The notes beneath the pieces are model-generated. The model saw only the letters and a program-made list of their open reading frames with translations, ran no database searches and was not told where the DNA came from. Shown here piece by piece: positions 1-61,070 of a stretch of DNA of 64,000 bases. The stretch's first letter is position 1, and each line of letters starts with the position of its first letter. The translations under genes were made by a program, and so were the position numbers. Location: the NCBI RefSeq assembly GCF_029360725.1, contig NZ_JARKMY010000014.1, forward strand, positions 186,001-250,000. Reading direction: 5' to 3'. This DNA is from Chryseolinea sp. H1M3-3. GTDB taxonomy: Bacteria > Bacteroidota > Bacteroidia > Cytophagales > Cyclobacteriaceae.

Positions 1-3000
1 ACCACGTATTATTGATCGCATAGTTCGATACGAGTGCTGAGTCGCCCGTTACTGTGATTTCCGCATCTTCATAAGTCCGCACATTTGCCTTCACAGGAAT
101 TCGATCACTGGTGCAACCGGATGGTGTTACCGCTTCCACATAATAGCTTCGTGATTTCAGTAGCGGCGGGGTTTCAAAAAAAGTTGATTGCACCTGCGCA
201 TCTTGTGAATCTAACTCGGGAAACCAATTAAAAAACACATCATTGCCGTCACTTGAGGCGGCAAACTTGGCCGAAGTTCCGCGGCAAACATCTACGCTGT
301 CAGGAAATACAAATACCCTGGGCTCAGTTTGTATTTTAACTTGATAACTGTTCTGTAACGTGTCAACATAGCAGGAGGATTCCGCTTTTAACGTTAGTAT
401 ATGCTCGCCGGCGTGTAATGAGTCGGAGGGGAATCTGATTGTTAAATCACTGCTGGCGGTTGGTTTCATGGATGACAACATCCTGCCACTACTGTCCCAA
501 AGAGAGTAGCGGACATCCTCTTCAGCGTTTTTAATACTTATATCGACCATGTCTCCTTCGCAAACAGATGCCGGACCGAGAATGGAAAGATCCACTCGAG
601 GTTTACGCTCTGCCAGTCGCAAAGAGATACGATCGACAGCAAAGGAAGCGGGGTCTTTCGTCACTACAAATTCAACGGGCTGGTTGTGACTTAACAAAGT
701 TTCGCTCTGAAGAAACTTATCGATCAATGTATAATCGTATCGCGAGAAATCGTATTTGGTTGTCAGGCTAAACTGATATGAACCTACTGTTAAATCCTTC
801 AGGTGAATTTGCACAACCGTGTCGCAGGGCATTTTATTGGTGGCATTTATGGCGAGTGACATTTTATCTGATGACAAAAACGATAGATCATAGTTGTCGT
901 TATCAAGCTTAAGCCCATCCCACTCATCCAATGCCGGTTTTGAAAAAGGCCTGACTTTAAAATAAGCGACATCTGATATTGAATCCTTGGACAACCGGAT
1001 GGCAAAACTCGGAATGCGTGCTGGCTCCTTTCTAAAAAATGTCGCTCCTCCCAGTACTTTTACTCCCTCCCGAATGGTCAATTTTGGATTAGGGCCAGTG
1101 GCACGCACCCATACGGACTGACCAGAAGCAATGCGCCCGTCAGGGATTTCCAAATAATTATCATCCATATCGTAATAGCGGTAGATCCCATTGATCTTCT
1201 GGTTATCATAAACGGCAATGACAGGAGAAATACTCTCCATTGTCCATCCATCATTTGAAGGTTCGCGCCATTGAATGGCACATGCATAAGGATTCCCCAT
1301 AAGGTTCCATCCGTTTGAGGGTTCATTGTTCGAAGTAAAGTTGACGGGCAAATCTATCGTACCCTGATTTAATGGGCCCGTCACGTCCCAGATGGTTGCT
1401 GCGTTAGCCTTTCTCACAAAAGCAGCATAACCTTTCCCAACGATCAATGGATTATCGCTTGCAAGCCCTGTTGTCGGATATGGTTTCCAACCCTCTTGTA
1501 AACCCCCAACCGATTCGTCATAATAATATAAAGAAGGACTTGTTGATTTGATTCCCGGTCCTGTGCTTGGATCCAGAAATTTCCCTGTTACCGGAAAATC
1601 ATCTTTCAACGATGCAACGGTACCGTTCCCCACCGGTGAGGAAATAAACCGGTATCTCCGTCCCTCCCCTTCCATATGCCGCTGAACCGTTACGTTACCC
1701 TCGACAGACGACCCATTCGGCAATAGCCCGACACAGGCGGTACCTGACGGTTCATCAGAAAGAGATAAAAGGGTTACATGACCATTTGTATGTAATGTGG
1801 TGTTTGGCGATGCTATCAGAATAGATCCCAGTATGTCCAAGGGATTGGTTACGATCACATCGTTATTGGATTTATTAATGGTCAGGTTCATCAGTGTTTT
1901 CCCAGGCGCGTCTAGTTGTTGCGCTTCCGCTCCCATCATGATGAGGTGTCCAGAGTTGAACTCAGCAGTTTCATTTACAGATACATCGCCATATGCAGTA
2001 ATGGCATTTGCATAGGTGAGCAATTTTCCTCCAACACGGATACCCTTGACAACGATATCCTTTAGCAGGTTTATACCTAATGCATTATTACAAATTAAAT
2101 TCGTGCCCGGAGCATCGGGATGACCTGCGCCGATCCATTGCTCAGCCCCACCGTTGTATTCAATCGTTGAACCATTTTCATATGTACGTTCACCACGGAC
2201 TTGGATGTTACCTTTGTTTGTTAACTGGATCGCGCCTTCGGGATCTGTAGAACCCACCAGCAACTTTCCCTTTAAAAGAAAATTGCCGGCAGAATTTGAC
2301 AAAACAGAAGTCCCGAGATCTACCGTCGCAGTGCTTTCAATGGTAAAATCCAAATTTCCCTGAAAGGAGCTGGCGGATGACAATACCTGTTGGACCGCCG
2401 CTCCAATAAATTTAATCGTCCCTTTGCCAGGAGCAGGCGGTGCAATTAAAGTCCCTGCGTTTATTTTAAAATCACTAAATAAGGAAAGGGTACATTGACG
2501 TGTCCCTGTACTGTCGGTACTGGTTGACGCCATGTGAATTCGTCCGGGGGAATTCATTTCCATTTCGCCATGAATGTTAACGGTTATGGAACCTTTGGTA
2601 GTCAGGTAGCTAATCCCTGTCGACGTTGAATGATATAGAAAATCTTTTTGAACGTTGATGACAGTATTCGAAGGCGTGGTACTGAACCAGACCTTTGACG
2701 GACCTTCTATTGTAAAGTCACCTCCGATAGAGATCACAGGATTTTGCGTGGTGGATAGTCGCAGCGCTTGATTATTCGTGCTAAGCACTGTAAAATTTCC
2801 GGCGATGTTTCTGAGATATCCGTTCAAGTCAACAAAAGCAGTCGTCTGTTGTGCACAGTTATAAATCACGTGTCCGAAATTCTGTTTCCAACTATCACTG
2901 TGCGCAATATTGATATAGCCCTGCGAAGTAAATCCTCCAATTTCAAATGTTGAATTCGGATCCCATGTTGCATACGGGATAAAGCCCAAAGGCCCCTGAA

Positions 3001-3400
3001 GATGAATATACCTGCTGCCGGATTCAAAAATGGTATTGGATACTGTCGTTCCATTTAAGGTCGCCCCATCCTGCTGCACTAAAACACCGAATACTTGCAA
3101 ATCCTTTTTCTCCGGAAGGGCGTCCGCCACAAGATCGGCTACAGAACCTGTCCCAACGGTGAGCCTACCGTTTACGACAACATTCTGTAGCGAAATTGTG
3201 CTTCCGGCAGGGATCATTACCTCATGGTTCACAACGGTTTCAGTACTGTTCACGACAGTGGGTACCAAATTACTATCCCACACGGTGGGGTCCGTCCATA
3301 AACCATGCTTTATTGAAGTAACGATCTGCCCATAACTATTAACAATCACCCACAACGTTAATCCAACAAGAAAGCATACCTTCTTGATGATTAAATACAT
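1..3400 (-). CDS. Giant secreted surface protein (T9SS cargo type), 3' end outside the window
   Basis: The frame is open from ATG at 3400 to the window edge, at least 1,133 codons, so the C-terminus is missing. Residues 1 to about 23 form a signal peptide ending near NSYGQ. A long Gly/Thr/Asn-rich beta-solenoid-like stretch follows, with GSTIEYNGGAEQWIGAGHP near residue 410. A module near residue 700 reads GWNLMGNPYACAIQW and is followed by IASGQSVWV; the remaining part looks Ig-like. The same modules in the same order occur in the 1532-aa protein at 6105-10703 (SSVIYDGAGAQFIGSGHP, LNLVGNPYPSAIDW, IAQGQSFFVYA), which ends in a T9SS sorting domain, so the two are paralogues. Role in adhesion or the cell surface is inferred; the sorting domain itself is not visible here. 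Confidence 0.85.
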   Translation of the reverse strand, partial: MYLIIKKVCFLVGLTLWVIVNSYGQIVTSIKHGLWTDPTVWDSNLVPTVVNSTETVVNHEVMIPAGSTISLQNVVVNGRLTVGTGSVADLVADALPEKKDLQVFGVLVQQDGATLNGTTVSNTIFESGSRYIHLQGPLGFIPYATWDPNSTFEIGGFTSQGYINIAHSDSWKQNFGHVIYNCAQQTTAFVDLNGYLRNIAGNFTVLSTNNQALRLSTTQNPVISIGGDFTIEGPSKVWFSTTPSNTVINVQKDFLYHSTSTGISYLTTKGSITVNIHGEMEMNSPGRIHMASTSTDSTGTRQCTLSLFSDFKINAGTLIAPPAPGKGTIKFIGAAVQQVLSSASSFQGNLDFTIESTATVDLGTSVLSNSAGNFLLKGKLLVGSTDPEGAIQLTNKGNIQVRGERTYENGSTIEYNGGAEQWIGAGHPDAPGTNLICNNALGINLLKDIVVKGIRVGGKLLTYANAITAYGDVSVNETAEFNSGHLIMMGAEAQQLDAPGKTLMNLTINKSNNDVIVTNPLDILGSILIASPNTTLHTNGHVTLLSLSDEPSGTACVGLLPNGSSVEGNVTVQRHMEGEGRRYRFISSPVGNGTVASLKDDFPVTGKFLDPSTGPGIKSTSPSLYYYDESVGGLQEGWKPYPTTGLASDNPLIVGKGYAAFVRKANAATIWDVTGPLNQGTIDLPVNFTSNNEPSNGWNLMGNPYACAIQWREPSNDGWTMESISPVIAVYDNQKINGIYRYYDMDDNYLEIPDGRIASGQSVWVRATGPNPKLTIREGVKVLGGATFFRKEPARIPSFAIRLSKDSISDVAYFKVRPFSKPALDEWDGLKLDNDNYDLSFLSSDKMSLAINATNKMPCDTVVQIHLKDLTVGSYQFSLTTKYDFSRYDYTLIDKFLQSETLLSHNQPVEFVVTKDPASFAVDRISLRLAERKPRVDLSILGPASVCEGDMVDISIKNAEEDVRYSLWDSSGRMLSSMKPTASSDLTIRFPSDSLHAGEHILTLKAESSCYVDTLQNSYQVKIQTEPRVFVFPDSVDVCRGTSAKFAASSDGNDVFFNWFPELDSQDAQVQSTFFETPPLLKSRSYYVEAVTPSGCTSDRIPVKANVRTYEDAEITVTGDSALVSNYAINNTW

Positions 3401-3419
3401 AATAGCTAACGATGTCGAA

Positions 3420-4009
3420 AGGTAAGTAGTAGGGAGTTGCGGGGGTATCTGGTTTTCCGGATTAAATGCAGATAATCGGGTATTCGGTAATCGGGGTAAT
3501 CAGGTATTCGGTAATCAGGGGGTCGGTGATCGGGTAATCGGTATCGGGTATTCGGGTAAACTGGTATTGAACAGGAATTGAATATCGAGCAAGGAATGTT
3601 GAATGTCGAATGGAAATCCACCACCGATCAGATGGTAAGCGATCAAAAGAACCGAATACCCGATGACCCGATGACCATTCGTAATCACTAAGGACTTGCA
3701 CATCTTAAATCCAGCACAACCTTTTCAAGTACCTACCAGCTTACCCGATAACCGAATACCGATTACCTTTTTAAAGGGAAGAAATTGAATATCGAATATC
3801 GAGCAAGGAATATTGAATATTGAATGAAAATGCACTGCCGATTGAAGCGAAAGTGATAGGAAAGATCTGTTTTAACGCCTCACCTGATAACCGAATACCT
3901 GATGACCAGATTACCTTTCATAATCACTAAGGCCTGCACATCTTAATCCCCCACAACTTTTTCAAGTTCCCCTACCTGATTACCGATAACCGAATACCGA
4001 TCACCCTTC
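3420..4009. repeat. Imperfect tandem repeat block between two minus-strand genes
   Basis: No credible gene lies here. The sequence is built from variants of two short words: GGTATTCGGTAATCGG-like words (3470-3560 and, inverted, 3640-3780 and 3890-4008), and TTGAATATCGAGCAAGGAAT-like words at about 3576 and 3790. A larger unit containing TAATCACTAAGG, CTTGCACATCTTAA or a variant, CACAAC and TTTTCAAG is present twice, at about 3682 and 3921 (period 239), so part of the block is a diverged tandem duplication. It begins immediately after the stop codon of the dehydratase gene (TAG at 4010-4012, read on the minus strand). The second word family recurs at 61617-62010 and 63898-63957. Confidence 0.8.
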
Positions 4010-5911
4010 CTAATTGGGAACATCCAACACCTCAAACCTCGAGTAATTGCTCTTAAACTCAGGAACGATCTCCTTCATCAGTGCTACCATTTTGAGTTCG
4101 TTTTTATCGACGATGAGGTCTTCCAGTAAGTTGAGATTCTGGCAAACTTCGTGGTATTCATATTCAGATACCATCGCCTTCAGGATCTTTTCATGGTGGG
4201 TAGGGATGGTGTTTTCCTGGTCGTTTAATAATTCTTCGTACAACTTTTCACCATCGCGGAGACCGGTGAAGACAATCTCAATATCTTTTCCTAATTCTTT
4301 GCCAGAAAGCATAATGGTCTTTTTAGCAAGGTCATAGATCTTGACAGGCTTGCCCATATCAAAAAGAAATATTTCACCACCTTGTCCCATAGACCCGGCT
4401 TCGATGACCAGTTCGCAGGCTTCAGGGATGGTCATGAAAAAGCGCGTAATGTCGGGATGCGTAACAGTTATTGGTCCACCTTTTAATATTTGTTCCTTGA
4501 AGATGGGGATAACCGAACCGTTGGATCCCAACACGTTGCCAAACCGAGTGGTAACAAAAGAAGTTTTTGCGATGTCTACTTTGCGATAGTAACGATCCAG
4601 TGATTGCACATAGATCTCGGCAATACGCTTGGTGCAACCCATCACGTTGGTTGGGTTCACAGCTTTGTCGGTAGAGATCATCACAAACTTCTTCACCTTA
4701 TGCTCGACTGCGAGATCGGCCAATGTTCGCGTGCCGAATATGTTGACCATCACCGCTTCGGAGGGATTGCTCTCCATCAGGGGAACGTGCTTGTAAGCAG
4801 CGGCATGAAATAAAATTTCCGGATGATAATCTTTAAAAATAGAATTGATTCTTGTACGGTTACAAATATTGGCGACAAACACCAGTAGTTTTGACTGTTG
4901 GTTCTTGCCACGAAGTTCTCTTTCGATTTCATAAAGGGGTGACTCTGCCTGGTCCACCAGGATCAAGGTGTGCGGTTTGTACGTCAATATCTGACGCGCC
5001 AACTCAGAGCCTATAGAACCAGCTGCTCCGGTAATACAGATTACTTTATTCCTGATTTCTTTTTCGATCTCGGGATTATCCAAACGAATGACTTCACGAC
5101 CTAACAGATCTTCGATGTTAATGTCCCTGATTTGTTTTAAGTCCCACTCGTTTCGTAGCCATTTTTCAAAAGAGGGGACATAGCTGACTTTAACATGGTG
5201 CAGCAACGCCTGGTCTACTATCTCATTCTTCCGTTCGATAGACAAGCTTTTTGTAGCAATGACCATCTTCCTCACTTTATTCTTTTTAACCAGTTCATCG
5301 AACTTATCCATTCCGCAGATCCTGGTGCCATTGATTTCCTTATTATGCTTTTTAGGATCATCATCGATGAAGGCAACGAGTTTGTACTGCGTCGAGATAT
5401 CGGACTCGATCGCTTGCTTAGTAAGAAATCCAGCTACACCTGCGCCGAAAATGACAACCGGTACTTGCTTGGAGTTATCTGATTTAACGTAATTGAAGAT
5501 ATTTTTAACCAAGAGCCGATACTGGTAAAGGAGCAACGAAGAAATGAAAAAGGATATGAATACAACTGAATAAGGAATAACGTTGCGACCAAAATTGTAG
5601 AAATAGATGAGGTTGAAAATGGTGACAAAAACGATGCTCAATAATTCGGTTCCAATAATTCGAAGGCCATCTTGAATTCCGGTATAACGAACGATGCCCG
5701 CATAACTTTTTGTAACCAAGGTAGCCGTCATGGCGGCGGCAAGGCACAACAAGATGCCATACATCAGGTTGAAATTATCAATTTCCTGGAGTTCGAAATT
5801 AAAACGCAATAAGTATGCGAGGTATACGGAAAAGACAATGATCAGCTGATCGATGAGGATTACGACACCGCGCGGGAGGACTGTGAGCTTGCTAAAAAGT
5901 TTTTGGATCAA
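4010..5911 (-). CDS. Membrane-bound UDP-HexNAc 4,6-dehydratase, WbpM/PglF/CapD family
   Basis: This 633-aa protein has the length and architecture of the WbpM/PglF family: four predicted N-terminal membrane helices (about residues 14-130), a first nucleotide-binding fold (VVIFGAGVAG, 152-161), and an extended-SDR catalytic domain with ITGAAGSIG at 293-301. The usual SDR YxxxK is MGCTK at 424-428, the Met-for-Tyr variant known in the membrane-bound branch. Family knowledge predicts conversion of UDP-GlcNAc to the 4-keto-6-deoxy sugar, the first step toward bacillosamine-type sugars. The start is TTG at 5911, overlapping the upstream stop as TTGA, so translation is probably coupled to the 65-aa gene. 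The matching aminotransferase is at 10894-12024. Confidence 0.93.
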   Translation of the reverse strand: MIQKLFSKLTVLPRGVVILIDQLIIVFSVYLAYLLRFNFELQEIDNFNLMYGILLCLAAAMTATLVTKSYAGIVRYTGIQDGLRIIGTELLSIVFVTIFNLIYFYNFGRNVIPYSVVFISFFISSLLLYQYRLLVKNIFNYVKSDNSKQVPVVIFGAGVAGFLTKQAIESDISTQYKLVAFIDDDPKKHNKEINGTRICGMDKFDELVKKNKVRKMVIATKSLSIERKNEIVDQALLHHVKVSYVPSFEKWLRNEWDLKQIRDINIEDLLGREVIRLDNPEIEKEIRNKVICITGAAGSIGSELARQILTYKPHTLILVDQAESPLYEIERELRGKNQQSKLLVFVANICNRTRINSIFKDYHPEILFHAAAYKHVPLMESNPSEAVMVNIFGTRTLADLAVEHKVKKFVMISTDKAVNPTNVMGCTKRIAEIYVQSLDRYYRKVDIAKTSFVTTRFGNVLGSNGSVIPIFKEQILKGGPITVTHPDITRFFMTIPEACELVIEAGSMGQGGEIFLFDMGKPVKIYDLAKKTIMLSGKELGKDIEIVFTGLRDGEKLYEELLNDQENTIPTHHEKILKAMVSEYEYHEVCQNLNLLEDLIVDKNELKMVALMKEIVPEFKSNYSRFEVLDVPN

Positions 5912-6105
5912 GCTTCGTTATTCTTATTTCTTCCTTTTTTCAATCGATAAATTCCATAGGCTCCCCCTCCTAGAAGCAAGTACTCAATTCCAGTGAGAGG
6001 AACGGGCTCAGGCTCCGGGGGTAACGTGGGTATGGTTGGGGGTTGTGCAATCACCAAAATAGTTGTAAACCACAATATCGCTATACTTGATAAGATGAAC
6101 TTCAT
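5908..6105 (-). CDS. 65-aa exosortase-substrate-like peptide (PID-CTERM-like tripartite tail)
   Basis: The protein has an N-terminal signal peptide (residues 1-20, cleavage expected near VIA|Q) and a Pro/Glu-rich stretch (PPTIPTLPPEPEPVPLTG). A short hydrophobic helix (IEYLLLGGGAYGIYRL) and a basic tail (KKGRNKNNEA) complete it. Motif, membrane span and basic tail is the layout of exosortase/PEP-CTERM sorting signals, and GGGAYGIYRLKK resembles the small Bacteroidota proteins called PID-CTERM. An XrtF-like exosortase is encoded at 12470-13018. If both ends are cut, the mature product would be only about 20 residues. ATG at 6105 shares one base with the upstream stop (TAATG), and the stop overlaps the next start (TTGA). 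Assignment as substrate is inference. Confidence 0.72.
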   Translation of the reverse strand: MKFILSSIAILWFTTILVIAQPPTIPTLPPEPEPVPLTGIEYLLLGGGAYGIYRLKKGRNKNNEA

Positions 6106-9100
6106 TATTTAATCTTTGCAATTTTTTTGACAATAACTTTTTTGCCGTCGAGAATTCTTATGTTATAAATTCCCGTAGCATACGACAACAGGTCAAATTC
6201 CCCTTCTTTTACGCTTCCATCCCCCATCAGTGGTTTTGTACCAATTTCGATGCCTTGTGTATTAACTAACGTAGCTGTCACATTGTTATTGGCTGATTTA
6301 ACCCTAATAAACACTTTATTTTGAGTAGGGTTCGGGTAGATGTTAACTGCAATCTCTCCCTCCATACCTGTTATTTCAAGTGACGCACGCTTACTGCAGG
6401 CACCTGAATTTACCTGGACAGTGTATAACCCTGGTTCTAACGCCTCTAAGGTATTGCTTGTTGCCCCTTCGATCAATTCGTCATTTAAATACCATTGGTT
6501 CCCCGTTTCCGAGCCTGACGTGAGTATGTTGCCTTCTGCCGACAACGTCAGATCCTCAAGGTTTGACACAATGGCTTGAACTGGTACCCGCGCCCCTTCG
6601 CATCCTTGGCTGTTTACCGCAGAAACGTAATAAGTCTTCGATTTAGCCAAATGTGGTGTCACAAATTCGCCATCATTATGACCAGCTATTGGGTTTAAAT
6701 CGTCCTGGGAATTATACCATTGATACCATCCTTCCTTCGATGCTCCTGCCACTTTCAAGGTCGCCGAACCACTGCCACAGATTGCGCCACTTTGAAGGAT
6801 CCTGATCTCACCGGCACTCAACTTAGTTATTACGGGTTTTGCGGTAAGGGGCGCTGCAGAACACACACCGGATTGAGCCCTGATCGTAACATTATTTTCC
6901 CCAGCTGACAGCGCTGAGGTATTAACTATCAACTGAACCAGTGACCCTGTGCCAGAGACAGGTTCAGAGATTCTAGCGCCATTCAATTCTGCGGAATAGG
7001 TTACGCCGGGTTCGGAGCTTTCTAATGTGATAATAGCAGTTGACTTATCGCTACAAACACTTTCACCGCTGGCCGCGATTGTATTGTTAATCGTGGCAGT
7101 GCTTCCCTCAATCGCTATCTGGAACCGGGAAGACAACAGATCAATATTTTGGTCGTTTACCGTAAAGGAATATTCTTTTTGACTCCTGATATCAATCCTC
7201 TTTTTTTCAACCACATCTAACAAGCCGATGTTGATAAAGGAATCAAAAGATTCCATGCCGACAAAATTCAGCGTGTAGGTACCCTGTTGCATGCCCTCAG
7301 TGACCAGTGGAATAATCTTATTACATTCTGCCGTTCCGAGCGCATTGATTACAGCCTTAATATTATCGGAGGTCAATGATGATAGATGAGCATTTTTGTT
7401 TTGCATACTCACCTTATAGGCATCAAATTGTCCATCAAATTGGTCGGTTGCTCCTTCGCGGAGCCTGATTACAGCCTCATCTTTTATCTCATTTCCATTC
7501 AGGACGATACGGAGTACATTAGGAATCTCTCCTTTCTTATAAAACTGTGTATTCGTTACCGATGTCTTAGCCGCTTCAGTAAAGGTTAATGTGGCATTTG
7601 CCGAAGCGTAAACGAAAAAGGATTGCCCTTGCGCGATCGTGCCGCCATATCCTGATGGCGTACCAATACCGTCAACATAGCTAACAAGGATATCAGGTTC
7701 TGTCCCTTGGCCGCTGTTGCCATAATTATCACGAAGATACACCGCATTATAAATGGCAGGTGGCAACGTCATATTATCCCAATCAATTGCCGAAGGGTAA
7801 GGATTACCGACCAAGTTTAAACCTTCGTATCCATTAACGATTGGTGTCGTAGAAGTCACAGGAACATTAACGTTGCCTTGCCCCAAAATGCCTCTGGAAT
7901 CATAAGTAAAAGTTGATGTGGCATTTACATATATCAAGAAACCTCGCCCACTGGTTAGCGCAGTGCCAGAAGTAATTGCCGCCCAGGCCTGGGTAGGCTC
8001 ATTCCAACGATAAGACTTGTCAAGCGGTAATTCTACATCCCAATCCGCTAAAGTTGCATTACTAACAGGCGACGCCAAATAATGGAAACCTTCTCTGGCA
8101 ACAACCTTTGGTAGATAGCGCTGAACAATTACAGAACCGGTTATTGAAGCACCTGAGGGTAATTGATTGACATTTGCAGTTCGTGTTGGCGTAGATAACA
8201 ACCGAAGCTGTTCATTACCAGCATTGAAAACTGACCCGGAATTTATAGCTAAACTGTTTTGAATATCTAAATTGGTGCCTGCACTCAATGCCACTGTTGA
8301 AGTAGTCGTTTGGTTCACTTCTAAATCAAACAACGTCAATGGAGTCGTAGCATCAATTTGTTGCGGTGCTGCACCAATGAAAGACACTTTAGATTCACCA
8401 CTTAATAATGTTCCTGCCACCAGTAGGTCTTCTCCGATAGCCACATCGTTATTTGTTCCAATATCAAAGCTACCCTGAAGAACATTAAATGTTTTATTTA
8501 CGACTATATCGTGGTTAAGAGTAAGCAAGCCTGTTCCCTGTTTGGTTAAATTGCCTAATCGAGTCGTTACCGGGCTTGTAAAAGGTAATTCATTCCCTGT
8601 AGTAATATCAGTAGCGATATCGTATAATACATCGTAGCTGCTGATTGCACCTAAAACCTGCGTTATCGAGCCACCGGAATATCGGGTAACCAAACCATTA
8701 GGCGCCATAGTTATGTTAAATGAGGGATTATTTACCACGCCGTTGAAAAGATTTAGATTGGTAAGTGTCAGCGGTGACGAGGAGGTGAATGTAGCCGCCG
8801 GCCTGTTCATCGTGAGTGAGAAAAGATTAGGTCCTGCGATATTCACATTTGTTGGAAGCGATCCTGTTCCTTCGACTACCAGAGTAGAATTATCAAAAAC
8901 CGCTAACGAAGCACTACCAGATTGGACATAATTCCCTCGAAGCGTTAGTGTATACGCACTAAACTGTCCTAAAGAAAATGTTCCGTTCGTTTGTGTAAAG
9001 GCCCCGCCCACAATAAGAGAATTTCCTAGAAACACAGTTCCCCCTGAGCGATTAATGGTCAAGTTATTCATGGGGTTATTTGGAAACTGGACCGGTGAAA

Positions 9101-10703
9101 GTAGTAAGTCCCCAAAATTTCCTGAGCCATTAATGACTACATTGGAAAGGGTACTGATCCCAAAGTACCCATTTGTTCTTGAATAGGCACCCCCCAACGT
9201 TAAGGTATTGCTGCCGATCAGCAACACCCCCTCTACTTGGTTCAATGCTCCATTGATAGTAACATTGCCGACCAAGGAAACATTATTTGTGTTGTTGATA
9301 GTGGTATTAGCTGTAATGGGATGACCTGAGCCGATAAATTGAGCACCCGCTCCATCATAAATTACAGACGAGCCTGCTACAAATGTTCTCGTACCGGTCA
9401 ACCTGATATTACCTCCCGTAGCATTATTCTGGATGGCGCCTCCCGCATCTAAAGATCTGATATGTACATTTGCATTCGGGTACACGTACAATGCACCTGA
9501 TCCTGTGAGGGCCGAAGTACCCAAATCTAGAGTTTTTCCAGAAGCGATACCAAAGTTAATAGCGTTAGTAATAACTCCGCCGGTTTTAGAAAAAGCACTT
9601 GTTGTCCCAGCACCCGTAAAGTTAACGTTAGCGAATCCGCCCCCGACAGCTCTCGTAATTGTTCCCGCGGTTTGAATAAAATCGCCTTGAATGTTTAAGC
9701 TAGTAGTACCCGATCCTGCGCTTGTTTGGGTGCGTAGTGAAACCGTTCCTCCTGACATGGTATAATCGCCCGTCACGGCAACCGTTGTAGAACCAGTGCC
9801 CGCAAAAAATACTGTTCCTGCAGTAATATCAAAATTGCCCGGCGTGCTAACACTCCCAATATTCACAATTGAAGTCGCTGACGTATTCAAGATAAGACTA
9901 GAGTTATCCAACACACTTAAATTCCCACCAATATTAAGCGTATAGTTGCCAGAGGTCCCAAGGCTTAAAGTATACCCATTCGTTTTATTAATTGTTAGAC
10001 TTCCATTGACATTTCTGAGTTTTCCTGAAAAGCTTAAATCTTGTGCTTGAGACCTTCCATCCCACACAAAATTATAGAATTGAATAGAAACGTCATCAAT
10101 TACTGGACTTGCATTGGTCGCAAAAAAGGCAATGGTAGAACCTGTTTGCCAATCTGCGTAAGGTATTCCATCGTTTGACGCATGAATATGGATACCGCCA
10201 TTAAGTACCTTGTATGTGTTAAATGTTGTAGAATGAGACGCAGGAAGAATAGTGCCCGCATAATTATCGTTTACTATTGTGGCCCCGCTGTGAAGGCGAA
10301 CGAGTCCGTTATTTTGTAGCTGTGCAAAACTAACTCCATCGTTGTATAGCCTTAAATCATTACCAACACCGTTTAAAATACTTAAAATTCCATCAGATGC
10401 TACCTGTAGTACCGCATTGGAACCAAATTGCATCTGGTCTACAAACACCTCGAAACCGTCAGGTACAGTTACTGTGTTACTGGCTGAGATAATGATGATA
10501 TTACTTGTATAGGAAGGCAAAATATTCCTGTAACCTCCGGCAGATGGCGTTTCAAGATCTTTCCATCCTGAATTATTATATACCTGCCATGTCGATGCTT
10601 GGTTCCAATTTCCGGATTGACGGGATCTGTACCATCCGTTTGACTGCCCTAAGACAAAGCCGGCACTCAGACAAAAAAACAAAGCTAAAACTGCTTTTTT
10701 CAT
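6105..10703 (-). CDS. 1532-aa T9SS-secreted surface protein with type A sorting domain
   Basis: Residues 1-19 are a signal peptide ending at VLGQ. About 800 residues of Gly/Asn/Thr/Ser-rich repeats follow (recurring SGxxT, LTINRSGG, GNYVQSG-type strands), consistent with a beta-helix. A module with LNLVGNPYPSAIDW and IAQGQSFFVYA comes next, then Ig-like segments with paired Cys. The last 80 or so residues carry INIYPNPT-type signature (VNIYPNPTQNKVFIRV), YATGIYNIRIL and a Lys-rich end, which is the T9SS type A sorting domain. The protein should be secreted across the outer membrane and anchored or released. It is first in an overlapping operon with the 65-aa peptide and the sugar dehydratase. 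Its exact role (adhesin, matrix protein) cannot be told from sequence. Confidence 0.92.
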   Translation of the reverse strand: MKKAVLALFFCLSAGFVLGQSNGWYRSRQSGNWNQASTWQVYNNSGWKDLETPSAGGYRNILPSYTSNIIIISASNTVTVPDGFEVFVDQMQFGSNAVLQVASDGILSILNGVGNDLRLYNDGVSFAQLQNNGLVRLHSGATIVNDNYAGTILPASHSTTFNTYKVLNGGIHIHASNDGIPYADWQTGSTIAFFATNASPVIDDVSIQFYNFVWDGRSQAQDLSFSGKLRNVNGSLTINKTNGYTLSLGTSGNYTLNIGGNLSVLDNSSLILNTSATSIVNIGSVSTPGNFDITAGTVFFAGTGSTTVAVTGDYTMSGGTVSLRTQTSAGSGTTSLNIQGDFIQTAGTITRAVGGGFANVNFTGAGTTSAFSKTGGVITNAINFGIASGKTLDLGTSALTGSGALYVYPNANVHIRSLDAGGAIQNNATGGNIRLTGTRTFVAGSSVIYDGAGAQFIGSGHPITANTTINNTNNVSLVGNVTINGALNQVEGVLLIGSNTLTLGGAYSRTNGYFGISTLSNVVINGSGNFGDLLLSPVQFPNNPMNNLTINRSGGTVFLGNSLIVGGAFTQTNGTFSLGQFSAYTLTLRGNYVQSGSASLAVFDNSTLVVEGTGSLPTNVNIAGPNLFSLTMNRPAATFTSSSPLTLTNLNLFNGVVNNPSFNITMAPNGLVTRYSGGSITQVLGAISSYDVLYDIATDITTGNELPFTSPVTTRLGNLTKQGTGLLTLNHDIVVNKTFNVLQGSFDIGTNNDVAIGEDLLVAGTLLSGESKVSFIGAAPQQIDATTPLTLFDLEVNQTTTSTVALSAGTNLDIQNSLAINSGSVFNAGNEQLRLLSTPTRTANVNQLPSGASITGSVIVQRYLPKVVAREGFHYLASPVSNATLADWDVELPLDKSYRWNEPTQAWAAITSGTALTSGRGFLIYVNATSTFTYDSRGILGQGNVNVPVTSTTPIVNGYEGLNLVGNPYPSAIDWDNMTLPPAIYNAVYLRDNYGNSGQGTEPDILVSYVDGIGTPSGYGGTIAQGQSFFVYASANATLTFTEAAKTSVTNTQFYKKGEIPNVLRIVLNGNEIKDEAVIRLREGATDQFDGQFDAYKVSMQNKNAHLSSLTSDNIKAVINALGTAECNKIIPLVTEGMQQGTYTLNFVGMESFDSFINIGLLDVVEKKRIDIRSQKEYSFTVNDQNIDLLSSRFQIAIEGSTATINNTIAASGESVCSDKSTAIITLESSEPGVTYSAELNGARISEPVSGTGSLVQLIVNTSALSAGENNVTIRAQSGVCSAAPLTAKPVITKLSAGEIRILQSGAICGSGSATLKVAGASKEGWYQWYNSQDDLNPIAGHNDGEFVTPHLAKSKTYYVSAVNSQGCEGARVPVQAIVSNLEDLTLSAEGNILTSGSETGNQWYLNDELIEGATSNTLEALEPGLYTVQVNSGACSKRASLEITGMEGEIAVNIYPNPTQNKVFIRVKSANNNVTATLVNTQGIEIGTKPLMGDGSVKEGEFDLLSYATGIYNIRILDGKKVIVKKIAKIK

Positions 10704-10725
10704 ACGTCGCTTGATGCTTTAACTA

Positions 10726-10733
10726 CAAAAGTA
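10726..10733 (-). promoter_or_regulatory. Candidate Bacteroidota -7 promoter element (TACTTTTG)
   Basis: On the minus strand TACTTTTG matches the TAnnTTTG -7 consensus and lies 22 bases upstream of the ATG at 10703 of the giant T9SS gene. No clear -33 TTG is seen at the usual spacing. The rest of the 190-bp gap (10704-10893) is AT-rich with nothing else recognised. Confidence 0.45.
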
Positions 10734-10893
10734 ACGAAAGTTTGGAGATGGCCTTTAATTTAGGAAAACTTCAATAGTTATATCACTTAGACCCCTCTTT
10801 CGTAACCAGGTTTAATCTTATATTTTACATATTTAACAATATACTTACCTAAGTCTTCAAATTTATTCATAAACAAAACTTTAACGGTTTCCA

Positions 10894-12024
10894 TCATGCG
10901 CTTGATCCTAGTGCTTTCACCACTGAACGCCTTTCTGAAATTGTGAGGTTAGAGCTTGAAGGCAAGCATAACCCGTTTTTAAAAAGCACCTCCGAACAAT
11001 TATTGATATAAGAAGGAGCGTTCTTAAAAACAGGTTGCAGGTGCATTGGTTTCCAGAGTGGGCGACTTTCGATGTTTTCTTCTTCTAATGCTAATCTAAG
11101 ATCCTCCCGTGTCTTTCCAAATTGAACAGGGTCTACCAATATCGTAGTCAACCAACGATTTGAAAATGCGTCGGGTGGTTCCTCTAAAAAACGTATCCCG
11201 GAAAGTCCGCTAAGCTCAGATTTATAAAACGAAAAGTTGCCCCGACGTTGGTGAACCCGCTCATCTAATACACGCAACTGACCAAGGCCGATGCCCGCAC
11301 AAATATTACTTAATCTATAATTAAACCCGATTTCGCTGTGTTGGTAATGCGGCGCAGGGTCCCTCGCCTGAGTAGCCAGAAATTTGGCCTTTTGAATCCA
11401 AGTTGGATTATTCGACACAAGTGCGCCTCCCCCTGAAGTAGTAATGATTTTATTGCCATTAAATGAATAAATTCCCATATCACCGAAAGTACCTAACTTT
11501 TGTCCTCGGAAGGAGGATCCTAATGCCTCAGCGGCATCTTCGATTACGGGAACACCATACCGCTTTGCAATGGTGACGATGTCAACAATTTTAGCCGGCA
11601 TACCATAAAGGTGTACAACGATAATAGCTTTGGGTGTTTTTCCAGTCCGTCTAATCCGGTCTATTATGGCTTCTTCTAATAGTTCCGGATCCATGTTCCA
11701 CGTCTCTGCTTCTGAATCCACAAAGACAGGCACAGCTCCTTGATAAGCTATCGGGTTACAGGAACCAGAGAAAGTAAATGTAGAGCAGATCACTTCGTCG
11801 CCATGTTTTATTCCCAGGATGATTAAGGCGAGATGGATCGCAGCTGTCCCCGAACTTAGGGCCGCACAATAGCCAACACCGTTGTAAGCAGCCAGACCGT
11901 CTTCGAAAGCATTTATATTCGGACCAACAGGCGCCACCCAGTTGGTATTGAAAGCTTCTTGGACAAATTTAATTTCTTCTCCGCCCATGTGAGGCGCAGA
12001 AAGCCATATTTTCTTTCTGTTCAT
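10894..12024 (-). CDS. DegT/DnrJ/EryC1/StrS-family sugar aminotransferase (PglE-like)
   Basis: The 376-aa length fits the family. PLP-binding features are visible: SSGTAAIHLAL (58-68), the Asp of VIEDAAEALG (D163), and the Schiff-base Lys in SFNGNKIITTSGGG (K192). The family transfers an amino group to nucleotide-linked keto sugars. With the WbpM/PglF-type dehydratase at 4010-5911, two PglD-like acetyltransferases and a PglC-like transferase nearby, the likely substrate is UDP-4-keto-6-deoxy-GlcNAc. This would give the amine precursor of a bacillosamine-like sugar. It is distinct from the PseC-type enzyme at 49531-50733. Substrate is inferred from context. Confidence 0.92.
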   Translation of the reverse strand: MNRKKIWLSAPHMGGEEIKFVQEAFNTNWVAPVGPNINAFEDGLAAYNGVGYCAALSSGTAAIHLALIILGIKHGDEVICSTFTFSGSCNPIAYQGAVPVFVDSEAETWNMDPELLEEAIIDRIRRTGKTPKAIIVVHLYGMPAKIVDIVTIAKRYGVPVIEDAAEALGSSFRGQKLGTFGDMGIYSFNGNKIITTSGGGALVSNNPTWIQKAKFLATQARDPAPHYQHSEIGFNYRLSNICAGIGLGQLRVLDERVHQRRGNFSFYKSELSGLSGIRFLEEPPDAFSNRWLTTILVDPVQFGKTREDLRLALEEENIESRPLWKPMHLQPVFKNAPSYINNCSEVLFKNGLCLPSSSNLTISERRSVVKALGSSA

Positions 12025-12084
12025 TTTGGCCTAAAGATAGTGAGTGATATGAATTACGACTACCATGGCAGTTGAATTCTGCAG

Positions 12085-12477
12085 TTATTCTCCGCTCATT
12101 TTCCGCTGATAATAAAATGATGGTATTAGCAACATCAACAACGTCGGGTTTAAGATCAATCGGTGAAGAAAGGAAATGAGCGGCCCATTGTAAGTTGGAT
12201 AATAAAGTTTTAAGGCAAAGTACGGAACCAAAAAGACAACGACACCTACTAACTGAACATATAATGAAAAAATAATATACTTCCGTTCTTGAAATAGGAC
12301 GTATATTAAACCAATTGTAAATGCATCATTTAATAGAAATCGGATCGTACGGTTGAAAATAAATTTACTGATGGGTGCCTCAAGTCCTAATAGTCCTGCG
12401 ATATCCCATCGCTGAAAAAGGAAGACCAATAAGAGGCCCACTGAGCAAATAACCCCTACAATAACCCGGTTAAGCAT
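12085..12477 (-). CDS. Exosortase F-associated membrane protein
   Basis: This is a small (130-aa) protein with about four hydrophobic segments and no enzymatic motif. The start is placed at ATG 12477 (MLNRVIVGVICSVG), which overlaps the exosortase stop by 8 bases. A longer reading from 12540 would fully overlap exosortase coding sequence and is less likely. Size, topology and position directly downstream of an XrtF-like exosortase match the exosortase-F-associated protein that accompanies XrtF in Bacteroidota. Function in the family is unknown; translational coupling suggests they act together in the inner membrane. Confidence 0.78.
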   Translation of the reverse strand: MLNRVIVGVICSVGLLLVFLFQRWDIAGLLGLEAPISKFIFNRTIRFLLNDAFTIGLIYVLFQERKYIIFSLYVQLVGVVVFLVPYFALKLYYPTYNGPLISFLHRLILNPTLLMLLIPSFYYQRKMSGE

Positions 12478-13018
12478 TAAGTGCCTTAATGTTTTTAGAA
12501 GCGAACTTTCGAACCCACCATACCCATAACATGAACACAACTACATAAAGTATGGCGGTAAAAAAGTATTTATGCATAAAGTACATATAGCTCTTTCTAT
12601 AGACCGACACAAAAAAAAGCAATCCGATGCGAGCAATATTCATCAAATGCATGATCACTAGCCCAACCGGTATAAACCAAATCAGTGGTTTTGTTAAAGG
12701 GCCGAATGCAATGAGGAAAGCAACAAAAATAATCATTACATTAATACCATTACACCCTTCATACACCGCCAATACGCTGTTGTTTTCGTGAACTAATTGT
12801 GTCGTGGATTTAACACTATCTTTTATTGAGCAATCCCACCCACAAGACGAAAGTGCAATTGCCGTTTGATTTGTAACCCAATGCGTCATAGGATCCGGGC
12901 GTGGTTCATAAGCCGTTACATAAAGTCCATACAAAAAATTGCCTACCAAGTAAATTCCCACAAACTTCACGAGGAATAGGATTGTTGGCTTAAATTCATT
13001 AATGGAGAAATCTTTCAT
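12470..13018 (-). CDS. xrtF: Exosortase family protein, XrtF-like
   Basis: This 182-aa multipass membrane protein carries the exosortase catalytic triad in order. Cys89 is in VYEGCNGINVMI, Arg130 in MNIARIGLLFF, and His149 in YFMHKYFFTAIL; the C-terminal helix has LWVWWVRKF. The length (about 180 aa) and an adjacent partner gene fit XrtF, the compact Bacteroidota type. Exosortases are membrane transpeptidase-like enzymes that cleave C-terminal sorting signals and are usually encoded with exopolysaccharide genes, as here. The best local substrate candidate is the 65-aa protein at 5908-6105. Another Bacteroidota exosortase class is possible, since I could not run profile models. Confidence 0.88.
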   Translation of the reverse strand: MKDFSINEFKPTILFLVKFVGIYLVGNFLYGLYVTAYEPRPDPMTHWVTNQTAIALSSCGWDCSIKDSVKSTTQLVHENNSVLAVYEGCNGINVMIIFVAFLIAFGPLTKPLIWFIPVGLVIMHLMNIARIGLLFFVSVYRKSYMYFMHKYFFTAILYVVVFMLWVWWVRKFASKNIKALNA

Positions 13019-13173
13019 CTACTATTTATCTAACCCCTATGAATGTCTTTTTGCAATCCTAGCACGAAGGCTCTTTGACAATCTGCATTCGGATTCTACG
13101 CCACTATACGGTTAAGTGTCCAAAATTATCGAAAAAATAATGTTGCCTGGAAAAGGAGTGATATTCCACTGAT

Positions 13174-13800
13174 TCAAACTTTCCTAGCCGGAATTCCAAC
13201 AACCGTTGTCTCCGCTTCAACATCCTTTGTCACCACAGCTCCCATTCCGACTTTGCTGAAATTGCCTATAGTTACGTCATTTAATATGTTAGCGCCAGAG
13301 CCCACTAAAACACCATCGCCAATTTTTACCGTACCCGCTATGTTGACGCCTGTCATAACCGATGAGAAACTTCCCAATGCTACGTCATGTCCGACCGTTG
13401 TATTCAAGTTAATAAGCACGTGACTTTCAATTCGGATATCTGTAGTAAGGATGCATCCCGCAGTAATGATACTTCCCTCACCAATGGCAACAGATTCTTC
13501 GTCCTGAATAATGACGGAAGGATGAATCAACACTGGGAAATATACCCTTGAAGGATCGATCATTTTCACCAGAATGGACTTCGCTGAAGGATCACCAATC
13601 GCTATGACGAGATTTACGGGGGTAGTAAACGAATTTAACACATCCAATCCACCAAGCACTCGTATCCCTTTTACAACGGTATCTTTCCTTAATCCGTCAT
13701 CAATGAATCCTAATGGTTCGAACTGCCCAAGTGCTCGTACCAGCGAAAGTATTTCCTTCCCAAGTCCTCCCGCACCATAGATTAATAGTTGTTCTTTCAT
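13174..13800 (-). CDS. NeuD/PglD-family sugar O/N-acyltransferase (copy 1)
   Basis: This 208-aa protein has an N-terminal Rossmann-like substrate domain (IYGAGGLGKEILSL) and a C-terminal left-handed beta-helix with hexapeptide repeats (VKIGDGVLVGSGANIL, VTIGNFSKVGMGAVV). The family's catalytic His is in TTVGHDVALG, about residue 139. PglD-type enzymes acetylate the 4-amine of UDP-sugars with acetyl-CoA, while NeuD-type enzymes O-acetylate sialic acids. Next to a second homologue and upstream of a PglC-like transferase, a role in making a diacetamido or differently acylated priming sugar is likely. It stands alone, with 147 bp to the previous gene. Confidence 0.88.
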   Translation of the reverse strand: MKEQLLIYGAGGLGKEILSLVRALGQFEPLGFIDDGLRKDTVVKGIRVLGGLDVLNSFTTPVNLVIAIGDPSAKSILVKMIDPSRVYFPVLIHPSVIIQDEESVAIGEGSIITAGCILTTDIRIESHVLINLNTTVGHDVALGSFSSVMTGVNIAGTVKIGDGVLVGSGANILNDVTIGNFSKVGMGAVVTKDVEAETTVVGIPARKV

Positions 13801-13947
13801 GATATCAGTTAAGAGTTATCTGCGAATGGTTATCAGACGACTAGCGATCGCAAATATTAGTCATACAGGCATACTATAATTGGCAAAATACGATAACAAA
13901 ATCGGCAGCATCCCCTCGCCCCAACACGATTAACTGCCGGCAATTTC

Positions 13948-14580
13948 TCAAGCTTGAAACTTCAATCCTGAACTTACATACTTAATTACCCTCGCCGGAT
14001 TGCCTACAGCCACCACGTTGTCAGGTATATTATCGATTACTACAGACCCGGCACCTACAATACTCCATGCGCCTACTTTCTTACCAGGGATAATTGTTGT
14101 TCCCGCTCCTATAAAAGCTCCTTCTCCAATATAGACGTTTCCGCACAGAATTACACCAGGTGCCAAATGAGCGAAATCTTCAACTACGCAATCGTGATCG
14201 ACTTGGGCACCCGTATTGATTATAATATGACTGCCCATTTTCGACTCCGCTTGAACGATTGCACCTTGTAACACCACATTTCCTTCCCCGACTGTTATGT
14301 GCGAAGACAGTACCGCTGACGGATGGACAACATTGGCAAAAGGGTGACGCGCCCTTTCCGAAACATTTTTTCGTGTTGCATTATCACCAATAGCGACCAC
14401 CATCTTAGAGTTCGGGAAGTCGTTAATGTTGTATTCTTGGCGAATTGGGACGCCGTATAATGAGCCATTGCATTTGGGATCATATACGCATACAACAGTA
14501 TATCCCTGGACTACTGCACAGTCCATAACCACATGCGCATGTCCTCCGGCTCCCTGAACTATAATATTACCCGTTGCCAC
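13948..14580 (-). CDS. NeuD/PglD-family sugar acyltransferase (copy 2)
   Basis: This 210-aa protein has VQGAGGHAHVVMDC at the N-terminus (nucleotide-sugar domain) and a beta-helix C-terminal half (VYIGEGAFIGAGTTII, VGAWSIVGAGSVV). The catalytic His is in VDHDCVVEDF, in the place of the GHD of copy 1. The start is GTG at 14580, inside the 3' end of the PglC-like gene (14-base overlap), so the two are co-translated. That coupling makes this copy the better PglD candidate, acting just before the phosphoglycosyl transferase. Acetyl donor and exact position on the sugar are inferred. Confidence 0.9.
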   Translation of the reverse strand: MATGNIIVQGAGGHAHVVMDCAVVQGYTVVCVYDPKCNGSLYGVPIRQEYNINDFPNSKMVVAIGDNATRKNVSERARHPFANVVHPSAVLSSHITVGEGNVVLQGAIVQAESKMGSHIIINTGAQVDHDCVVEDFAHLAPGVILCGNVYIGEGAFIGAGTTIIPGKKVGAWSIVGAGSVVIDNIPDNVVAVGNPARVIKYVSSGLKFQA

Positions 14581-15211
14581 GAAATTTTTCCATCGTTAAT
14601 GAGGATTCACTGCTGATCCCTTCCGCTTTAAAAACTTTTATAACCGTCAAAAATAAGATTTTTATATCTAATGCGAACGACACGTTATCCACATACCACG
14701 CATCGTATGCAAACTTTTGCTGCCAGGACAATGTATTTCGTCCATTAACCTGCGCCCATCCAGTGATACCCGGTTTTACCAAGTGACGCCTTTTTTGTTC
14801 CGAATTATATAAGGGTAAATATTCCTTCAGCAAAGGCCTTGGGCCGACAAGTGACATGTGACCAAGCAGAACATTAAAAAGTTGGGGTATTTCATCAATC
14901 GATGTCTTTCGAACAAACTTGCCAACGGTTGTTAGACGCTGATCATCAGGCAACAAAATTCCGTTGCTATCACAATCGTCGGTCATGGTTTTAAACTTAA
15001 TAACAGTAAACAACTTTCCATTCTTTCCTGGCCTTTCCTGCACAAACCAAACTTTACCATGATTTGCAATAGAAAGCAATAGCACTACAATAATTAGAAC
15101 AGGAAAAAGAACTACTAATGCAAGAAACGATACAACTCGATCGAAAAAAGGTTTTATAATTTTGAGGTACAAACAGAATGTGGTTTGCACAAAAATAATA
15201 GTTCTTTTCAA
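14567..15211 (-). CDS. PglC-like polyprenyl-phosphate phosphoglycosyl transferase
   Basis: This is a bacterial sugar transferase of the small monotopic type: one N-terminal hydrophobic hairpin (FDRVVSFLALVVLFPVLI), then VWFVQERPGKNGKLF and the conserved FKTMTDD catalytic Asp region. The tail has SIDEIPQLFNVLLG, LVGPRPLL and PGITGWAQVNGR. It should transfer a phospho-sugar from the UDP-sugar to undecaprenyl phosphate and so start the glycan. There is no ATG; TTG at 15211 and TTG at 15172 (giving a YLKIIKPFFDR start, usual for homologues) are both possible. It overlaps the acetyltransferase downstream. Confidence 0.93.
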   Translation of the reverse strand: MKRTIIFVQTTFCLYLKIIKPFFDRVVSFLALVVLFPVLIIVVLLLSIANHGKVWFVQERPGKNGKLFTVIKFKTMTDDCDSNGILLPDDQRLTTVGKFVRKTSIDEIPQLFNVLLGHMSLVGPRPLLKEYLPLYNSEQKRRHLVKPGITGWAQVNGRNTLSWQQKFAYDAWYVDNVSFALDIKILFLTVIKVFKAEGISSESSLTMEKFRGNG

Positions 15212-59806: not shown

Positions 59807-60373
59807 ATGGGAAATGTAAAATTGAATGCACTCCTTGAAGGAGTGAGTGGAAAAGTTGGGTCAAACCTTGTCTTGCGCAAACGTGGTAAGCGAACAATTC
59901 TCGCAACCAATGGTGAAAGAACTGGTGTACTCACAGAAAAGCAAAAGGTAGTTCGTGAGCGGTTCAAGAACGCGGCAACCTACGCAAAGTCAGCGCTTAG
60001 AAATCCGGAGATTAAAGCAGTTTATGAGGCTGCTGCAAAGGGTGATGAGTTCATGACAGCGTTTACCGTGGCGGTAAGAGATTACCTGCGTCCGCCACAG
60101 ATTGCAGCGATTTTGCTGGAAGGCTACACAGGTCAGCCTGGTAGTATTATTCAAGTCAGACCGATCGATGATTTTAAAATCGTACGGATCAACGTTAGTA
60201 TTAATGCTCCCGATGGGACCTTGCTGGAAACCGGCGATGCTGTCCAACAAGATGGCGAGATGGATTATCAGTATGCGGCAGTACAGGCAAATGCGGTGCT
60301 CGCTGGTACAAAAGTAACCGTCAAGGCGATCGACAGGCCCGGTAATGAAACGATTGAAGAACGTGTTCTTTAG
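59807..60373 (+). CDS. Tandem paralogue 1, unknown function (188 aa)
   Basis: I do not know its function. The N-terminus has KLNALLEGVSGKVGSNLVLR, a Gly/Lys motif like the start of the DUF6266-type Bacteroidota proteins, and a basic stretch. A conserved middle follows: NAATYAKSALRNPEIKAVYE and AFTVAVRDYLRPPQI. A C-terminal beta-rich half (QVRPIDDFKIVRINVSINA) ends in AIDRPGNETIEERVL. No signal peptide or membrane helix is seen. Two similar genes follow on the same strand, and 126 bp separate it from the second, with a palindromic element in the gap. ATG 59807 sits after an A-rich leader. Confidence 0.8.
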   Translation: MGNVKLNALLEGVSGKVGSNLVLRKRGKRTILATNGERTGVLTEKQKVVRERFKNAATYAKSALRNPEIKAVYEAAAKGDEFMTAFTVAVRDYLRPPQIAAILLEGYTGQPGSIIQVRPIDDFKIVRINVSINAPDGTLLETGDAVQQDGEMDYQYAAVQANAVLAGTKVTVKAIDRPGNETIEERVL

Positions 60374-60417
60374 TCAGCATTTCAATAAGGCTGCTGCTTC
60401 TTCTTTCAACCCTGCAA

Positions 60418-60455
60418 CCTGCCTCCGCCATGGAGGAGGTAGGCCAGGGGTTGAT
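60418..60455. repeat. Palindromic element CCTGCC...GGTAGGCCAGG between paralogues 1 and 2
   Basis: CCTGCCTCC-GCCAT-GGAGGAGGTAGG can fold into a GC-rich hairpin in an otherwise AT-rich gap. The same ends (CCTGCC ... GGTAGGCC) occur at 63921-63940, where the sequence looks inserted. After it the 15-base word CTTAAACCAATTTAT occurs twice (60469 and 60483). Confidence 0.6.
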
Positions 60456-60499
60456 TAACCTTAAACCAATTTATCAACCATCTTAAACCAATTTATTTT

Positions 60500-61066
60500 A
60501 TGGCTATTATAGAAAATAATATACTGCTGCATGGCATTAGTGGCAAGCTGGGGAATGTTGTGTTTCGTCAGCTAAATGGAAAAACAATTATGTGTCTTCC
60601 TCCGCAAAGGCGGGCAGCACCTACTGCTATTCAAAAAGAACAACGCGAACGATTTAGACTGGCAACCATGTATGCAAAAATGGCACTCGACGATCCTGAC
60701 TTGAAGTACATGTACGAAAAGGCGGCAAAAAAATTGAAGTCCACCAGCGCATATGCCGCTGCCGTTGCAGACTATCTGAAACGGCCGGAAATCGAAGAAA
60801 TTACCACCGGTGTTGATACCGGAAGTAAAGAAGCTTTCATTTTCATTACCAGTGCCTCAAAAGGAAAAAACTTGTCGGTGTGCGTAACGATTTTCAGCGC
60901 AAACGGAAAAGTCATTGAGGCTGGCTACGTGAATTGCGATGGCTTTCAACGTGATTTTAAATACGTTGTACAACGGGCCAATTCCTTATCAGTCGGAAAC
61001 CTGGTTGAAGTAAAAGTGACGGACATGCCTGGAAACATCGCTGTAAAAACAGTAGTTATCGATTAA
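60500..61066 (+). CDS. Tandem paralogue 2, unknown function (188 aa)
   Basis: Same length and layout as paralogue 1: N-terminal ILLHGISGKLGNVVFRQLNG (Gly/Lys motif), middle RLATMYAKMALDDPDLKYMY and AYAAAVADYLKRPEI, and a beta-rich end with VKVTDMPGNIAVKTVVID. The conserved core is YAKxxLxxP...AAVxDYLxxPxI with a terminal DxPGN. Function not recognised. It is 4 bases upstream of paralogue 3, so both are probably on one transcript. Confidence 0.8.
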   Translation: MAIIENNILLHGISGKLGNVVFRQLNGKTIMCLPPQRRAAPTAIQKEQRERFRLATMYAKMALDDPDLKYMYEKAAKKLKSTSAYAAAVADYLKRPEIEEITTGVDTGSKEAFIFITSASKGKNLSVCVTIFSANGKVIEAGYVNCDGFQRDFKYVVQRANSLSVGNLVEVKVTDMPGNIAVKTVVID

Positions 61067-61070
61067 CGCT

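Follow-up and report, generated by a model that had tools for sequence, protein, structure and literature searches.

In the PEP-CTERM/exosortase systems, for which PepA of Aquincola serves as the example, a C-terminal sorting signal, an exosortase and polysaccharide genes go together, as they do at the locus described here; with additional PepA, exopolysaccharide went from soluble to bound and flocs were restored, but neither biofilm nor swarming came back in that organism (PMC9850573). The construction differs, as PEP-CTERM signals terminate larger proteins whereas the peptide considered here consists of signals plus about 19 residues, with its T9SS cargo separate. Sugar enzymes tied to surface-protein sorting are also a feature of the Wbp/Vim glycosylation of T9SS cargo, though that pathway acts on the cargo itself; the authors of that work raise, as speculation, an amino acid-modified sugar as the possible acceptor in exosortase systems (PMC7468200). 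For the signal itself the likeness is to PID-CTERM (NF046080), in which, as in the present peptide, a Pro-containing motif is followed by a hydrophobic segment and then a basic tail. However, PID-CTERM reads PIDGG whereas this peptide reads PLTGIE and scores below the model's cut-off. A literature search found no paper using the term PID-CTERM.

What does loss of an XrtF do to its host? In Flavobacterium johnsoniae XrtF is needed for biofilm and surface colonisation, and deletions of xrtF (Fjoh_1448), Fjoh_1449 and Fjoh_0651 stand in a single row of the phenotype table: reduced colonisation of sand, strongly reduced biofilm and no zorbs (PMC10936215). The deletions of porU, porZ and Fjoh_0334 fall in that row too (PMC10936215), so the phenotype is not specific. 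In the available text of that report Fjoh_0651 is called a ‘hypothetical protein’, exosortase substrates are left to future research, and Fjoh_0651 and XrtF are not connected (PMC10936215). Our literature search, whose coverage extended to few subscription papers, found no substrate study for XrtF, XrtX, XrtY or exosortase X among the titles listed.

The window, i.e., the whole stretch of 64,000 nucleotides of Chryseolinea sp. H1M3-3 DNA that was analysed, has at 4010-15211 a cassette in which a gene for a 65-aa peptide lies beside that for a giant T9SS cargo, with XrtF and its associated membrane protein some 6 kb upstream on the same strand. The reading preferred here, with a probability of roughly three in four, is that the peptide is a dedicated mini-substrate of the nearby XrtF, working with the T9SS giant in surface and biofilm assembly. 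The features, all on the minus strand, are as follows.

4010..5911, minus strand: nucleotide-sugar dehydratase, Polysacc_synt_2 family (PF02719, E 7e-118)
5908..6105, minus strand: 65-aa peptide gene, exosortase-substrate-like and PID-CTERM-related (open reading frame, profile, homologues, alignment)
6046..6105, minus strand: predicted signal peptide, residues 1-20, cleavage before Gln21 by the Q-rule (sequence, pattern)
5989..6045, minus strand: predicted mature stretch Q21-G39, Pro/Glu-rich and ending VPLTG (sequence; motif Pro and Gly invariant in alignment A1)
5911..5988, minus strand: hydrophobic segment and basic tail, residues 40-65 (sequence, tail charge pattern)
6105..10703, minus strand: giant T9SS cargo of 1532 aa, type A (C-terminal TIGR04183 and PF18962; Ig_7)
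10894..12024, minus strand: DegT/LegC-like sugar aminotransferase (TIGR04181, 390 bits, under the cut-off of 420; PF01041, E 9e-98)
12085..12540, minus strand: exosortase F system-associated membrane protein, start codon uncertain, frame overlapping XrtF (TIGR04127, 48.8 bits, cut-off 35)
12470..13018, minus strand: exosortase XrtF, with Cys89, Arg130 and His149 (TIGR04128, 132.3 bits, cut-off 90)
13174..13800, minus strand: NeuD/PglB/VioB-family sugar acetyltransferase (TIGR03570, 197 bits, cut-off 160.8)
13948..14580, minus strand: second NeuD/PglB/VioB-family sugar acetyltransferase (TIGR03570, 207 bits, cut-off 160.8)
14567..15211, minus strand: bacterial sugar transferase, Bac_transf (PF02397, E 3e-63)

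The peptide's frame, as read from the window, opens with ATG, and the plus strand across 5908-6105 is interrupted by stops. The stop of the 1532-aa gene overlaps that ATG (TAATG, junction AAATAATGAAG) and the dehydratase frame starts with a TTG that overlaps the stop of the peptide (TTGA, junction GCTTGATCC). The first-pass annotation had claimed both overlaps and a 65-aa frame between a T9SS giant and a sugar dehydratase, and the open reading frame, the junctions and the profile matches confirm it. The layout it described, a signal peptide, a Pro/Glu-rich core, a hydrophobic segment and a basic tail, is likewise borne out by the sequence, and its estimate of about 20 residues for the mature form fits the 19 of Q21-G39. 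The Bacteroidetes Q-rule expects Gln to follow the signal peptide cleavage site (PMC5837995). A chance open reading frame was considered as an explanation and is ruled out by homologues across the phylum.

Searched as a single sequence, the peptide found homologues in four of the five other genomes of its genus (E 7.1e-14 to 9.6e-12; the fifth, G015, gave E 0.85) and, among 196 genomes of the window's taxonomic family, in 40 at E <= 1e-3, mostly as small open frames. An alignment of 36 members, A1, was used as the profile for later counts; with it the peptide family is seen to be distributed across the phylum sample. Its consensus is MK...AQPGxP...PVPITGIExLLxAGGAxGxKKLxxxRK. Within A1 the Pro and Gly of the P-hyd-x-G-type motif are invariant, all 36 members have by pattern a small residue and then Gln at the predicted signal peptide end, the stretch that begins with this Gln and runs to the motif Gly being 11 to 26 residues long (median 17), and in all 36 the last 15 residues carry a net charge of +2 or more. 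Beyond the motif, the mean hydropathy of the best stretch of 15 residues has a median of 1.16 and a minimum of 0.58, which is moderate for a membrane helix. The first-pass annotation had proposed a check against the PID-CTERM/PEP-CTERM profile models. The window peptide scores 16.5 bits with PID-CTERM, under the cut-off of 26; a relation is seen nonetheless, 28 of the 36 aligned members being matched at E <= 0.1. No NCBIfam PEP-CTERM model matched the window peptide at E <= 1, its sole matches there being PID_CTERM and PFE_CTERM (the latter at 12.5 bits, under its cut-off of 24), and it matched no Pfam family. The signal type is already in NCBIfam as PID-CTERM; here the putative exosortase signal forms a separate mini-gene accompanying T9SS giants.

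How far is the cassette shared? Twenty-four fetched loci, selected for having peptide and exosortase close together, all have the aminotransferase, the giant (in every case directly upstream of the peptide), the dehydratase, a NeuD-type acetyltransferase and the XrtF-associated gene; XrtF was called in 23 (that of L042 was missed by the gene caller and matched by the XrtF model) and the sugar transferase in 21. In 22 of them the dehydratase is directly downstream of the peptide; in L043 and L076 it is not. The arrangement had been thought unusual; with the giant so placed in 24 of 24 linked relatives and the dehydratase in 22, it is not peculiar to the window genome. Cys89, Arg130 and His149 of XrtF, which we take to be the catalytic residues, are the same in all 37 sequences aligned. 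The dehydratase, aminotransferase, acetyltransferase and sugar transferase together presumably resemble a bacillosamine-type amino-sugar set. A second exosortase-like protein, a 463-aa frame, is present on another contig of the window genome (G000:C19:109509-109796).

Does the peptide go with the enzyme? With the A1 profile at E <= 1e-3 it is present in 76 of the 196 family genomes, and the XrtF model at the same E value matches 73 (54 of them above its cut-off), all 73 being called XrtF-like here. Both occur in 71 genomes, i.e., in 71 of the 76 with the peptide and 71 of the 73 with an XrtF-like exosortase. The five peptide genomes without an XrtF-like match (G044, G056, G129, G162 and G182) are assemblies of 140 to 570 contigs; the two with an XrtF-like exosortase and no peptide match are G032 and G083. 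In a phylum sample of 296 genomes the peptide is found in 67, an exosortase (TIGR04178) in 113 and both in 66, G383 being the sole peptide genome without an exosortase. The first-pass annotation had set an absence of co-occurrence with exosortases as the finding that would tell against it; these counts leave its proposal unrefuted. In the phylum sample 47 of the 113 exosortase genomes have no peptide at E <= 1e-3, so either the profile overlooks some peptides or exosortases of other kinds act on different substrates. Six genera include both a genome without either gene and genomes that have the two (genus labels were assigned for 164 of the 196 genomes, and one of the both-absent members, G008, is 83% complete). 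The genomes are related, which inflates Fisher p values, and such values are not probabilities of independent events.

Physical linkage was counted from the family sample alone, leaving out 40 fetched regions, many of which had been picked for linkage, and taking one peptide place per genome even where there are several, with distance measured between matched stretches and not gene ends. By that count peptide and exosortase are no more than 12 kb apart in 43 of the 71 genomes: in 38 they are within 12 kb, with the same strand in 36, and in five they are adjacent, with 24 to 174 nt between the matches and one strand. The signal also varies with the enzyme. Where peptides had been fetched (37 genomes of the 76), those whose exosortase scores at least 100 bits against TIGR04128 have P-hyd-x-G (32 genomes) and those scoring below 100 have PIDGG (five); the 100-bit line is our choice, and drawing it at the curated value of 90 would move one PIDGG genome, G113 (92.8 bits), to the other side. 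A sorting signal varying with its enzyme would fit a substrate, and common descent could also give that pattern. Some genomes have many peptides for a single enzyme: G007, G133, G161 and G180 (g8) and G112 (g48) each have six to twelve peptide matches and one XrtF-like exosortase.

The other partner is the giant. It scores 28.1 bits against TIGR04183, where the cut-off is 23, and had no match among PDB sequences at E <= 1; a single-sequence fold of its residues 1-800 gave a mean pLDDT of 41 and mostly strands. What precedes the peptide elsewhere was ascertained by scanning 90 loci (L039-L128), which held 88 profile hits. Twelve of these had no same-strand gene of at least 150 aa within 600 nt upstream (L109-L114 and L116-L119, of g92, and L125 and L128); from the remaining 76, removal of five repeated loci and one double-counted gene, and addition of the window's own gene, gives 71. 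The C-termini of 67 of these 71 directly upstream genes match TIGR04183 at E <= 0.01, a limit used in place of the cut-off (for L115 the type C sorting domain is the better match, and the type A score falls short of the cut-off), and 63 match PF18962. The four upstream genes without a T9SS domain are those for a fumarase, a methionine adenosyltransferase, release factor 3 and one protein without a family (L103, L108, L120 and L124). Giant and peptide stay together where the exosortase is unlinked (L057, L058 and L061, which are of the window's own genus, and L059 and L060) and, beside different large proteins, in many-copy genomes (L066-L070). They are thus a recurring pair. Eight peptides in L066-L070 are of the PIDGG type, each behind a large T9SS-type protein. 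In g92, which is Flavobacterium by its GldM, ten of twelve peptide hits lack an upstream gene on their own strand within 600 nt, and the other two are preceded, respectively, by a T9SS cargo and a release factor gene.

F. johnsoniae has the same exosortase and associated family as the window and, by the mapping that follows, the same peptide family; unlike in the window, its peptide gene lies a long way from xrtF, and no giant immediately precedes it. Which sequenced genome belongs to that species? G615 encodes a GldM 100% identical to that of PDB 6ys8, the only genome to do so of 398 searched in the genus, and we take the GldM chain of that entry to be from F. johnsoniae and G615 to be a genome of that species. 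Its PorZ gene of 2283 bp and XrtF-associated gene of 447 bp equal the published complementing fragment lengths (PMC10936215). The G615 peptide is 80 aa from its ATG, within a longest frame at 710501-710767. It is the best A1 match in its genome but a weak one, at E 0.0048, and it has no Gln at the cleavage site; against the peptide of G395, which A1 finds at E 4.8e-8, it is 56% identical over 81 columns. The second-best match in G615, L242 (E 0.02), was rejected as a second peptide, being antisense to a long open reading frame, and is taken as chance.

Our gene caller places 58 genes between the G615 peptide and PorZ; the tags FJOH_RS03415 to RS03710, in steps of five, leave 58 as well, and the legacy names Fjoh_0651 to 0707 leave 55. 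Pfam matches were obtained for the four neighbours to one side of the peptide and the three nearest to the other, seven genes in all, and none for the peptide. The fourth and fifth genes on that second side (243 and 134 aa) are also without Pfam, the 134-aa gene being six places off. With its 434 bp, promoter included, the published complementing fragment (PMC10936215) is a better match in size for the peptide gene (243 bp from its ATG) than for the 134-aa gene (405 bp). In the close relatives G395, G365 and G216 the peptide gene adjoins ribE and is 53 to 61 kb from PorZ, with 47, 39 and 43 genes, respectively, called between them by the same caller. On position, size and relatives we map the G615 peptide gene to Fjoh_0651. 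Beyond the report of the deletions (PMC10936215), the literature search, again covering few subscription papers, found no paper naming Fjoh_0650 to Fjoh_0653.

How might such a peptide work? It would be exported by Sec and then cut by signal peptidase I before Gln21, as the Q-rule suggests, with the P-L-T-G motif and the hydrophobic segment after it holding it in the inner membrane. XrtF would cleave near the motif and the new C-terminus may pass to an acceptor, as has been proposed for exosortases. The product of some 19 residues would then reach the cell surface or matrix and work with the co-encoded giant in attachment and biofilm, the pairing being read from gene order and the function being conjectural; the acceptor, or a partner glycan, could plausibly be made by the cassette's sugar enzymes. 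The core of the first-pass annotation, a candidate exosortase substrate, is well supported by the co-occurrence, the linkage, the agreement of motif with enzyme and the mapping to Fjoh_0651 with its xrtF phenotype. Its further idea, that the peptide may be a glycan-carrying anchor or a marker for glycosylation, was an inference and is kept here as such. D[ST][AILVMT] is a Bacteroidota O-glycosylation motif, and it occurs in none of the 36 members between the Gln and the motif Gly, although genes for modifying sugars are part of the cassette.

Several of the results above weigh on the mini-substrate reading: the five of 76 peptide genomes without an XrtF-like match and the two of 73 XrtF-like genomes without a peptide, the 47 exosortase genomes of the phylum sample in which no peptide was matched, the PID-CTERM score below the cut-off, the position of G113 between the 90- and 100-bit lines, the ten of twelve g92 peptides lacking an upstream gene, the weak G615 match with no Gln at the cleavage site, the legacy count of 55 and the 134-aa gene nearby, the unspecific phenotype row, the moderate hydrophobic segment and the second exosortase-like protein. 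The g92 peptides are indeed what would be expected if the T9SS giant were a mere operon passenger, and a peptide that is an XrtF substrate acted, once processed, with polysaccharide alone. The five family genomes with peptide adjacent to exosortase point the same way, among them the copies L124 and L125, which no T9SS gene immediately precedes, and so does the EPS core that zorbs have (PMC10936215). However, a passenger would hardly have a T9SS sorting domain in 67 of 71 instances, nor would pairs be expected to persist unlinked from the exosortase (L057-L061), or multi-copy peptides to stand beside different large proteins (L066-L070), and this alternative is judged unlikely. Less probable still is that the peptide stays uncut, as a small membrane helper or as a pseudo-substrate regulating XrtF or polysaccharide export. 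Small size, a single hydrophobic segment after the signal peptide and linkage to the exosortase would suit that role, but the 36 aligned members retain signal peptide, Pro-rich stretch, motif and basic tail, and the four g8 genomes with six to twelve peptides and one exosortase each are better suited to substrates than to a regulator. Should the constant place behind T9SS cargo (67 of 71) instead mark a cargo-specific T9SS accessory with no exosortase connection? That is barely credible given the close co-occurrence with the exosortase and the adjacency to it in five genomes. The window genome has a single peptide match at E <= 1e-3 and 46 TIGR04183 genes over the cut-off (about 0.8% of its genes, assuming 1.2 kb per gene); the same disparity disposes of a generic T9SS component.

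With the mini-substrate reading, the analysis names one small XrtF substrate candidate that has a published deletion phenotype, and a recurring partnership is shown between two sorting systems, exosortase and T9SS. Tentatively, and with the balance leaning against it, one may go further to a split design in which the two systems build one structure, the processed 19 or so residues, joined to an amino sugar or polysaccharide, being the docking partner of one specific giant adhesin. If so, every giant would form with its peptide an adhesin unit independent of the others, with one exosortase serving in trans.

Following the dehydratase gene in the window is a second large Ig_7 protein (2-3400, minus strand), which continues past the window start and whose T9SS sorting domain is just outside, at G000:C6:185609-185842; from the genome's single peptide match it follows that this protein has no peptide of its own. 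Between it and the dehydratase gene, at about 3406-3703, is a repetitive stretch, apparent from residues that recur in three overlapping short minus-strand open reading frames. Elsewhere, L127:9088-13800 has two tandem units of large protein plus peptide, the second peptide being split over two frames and so probably a decayed duplicate. Towards the other end of the window, at 59807-61652 on the plus strand, are three neighbouring look-alike genes of 188, 188 and 193 aa.
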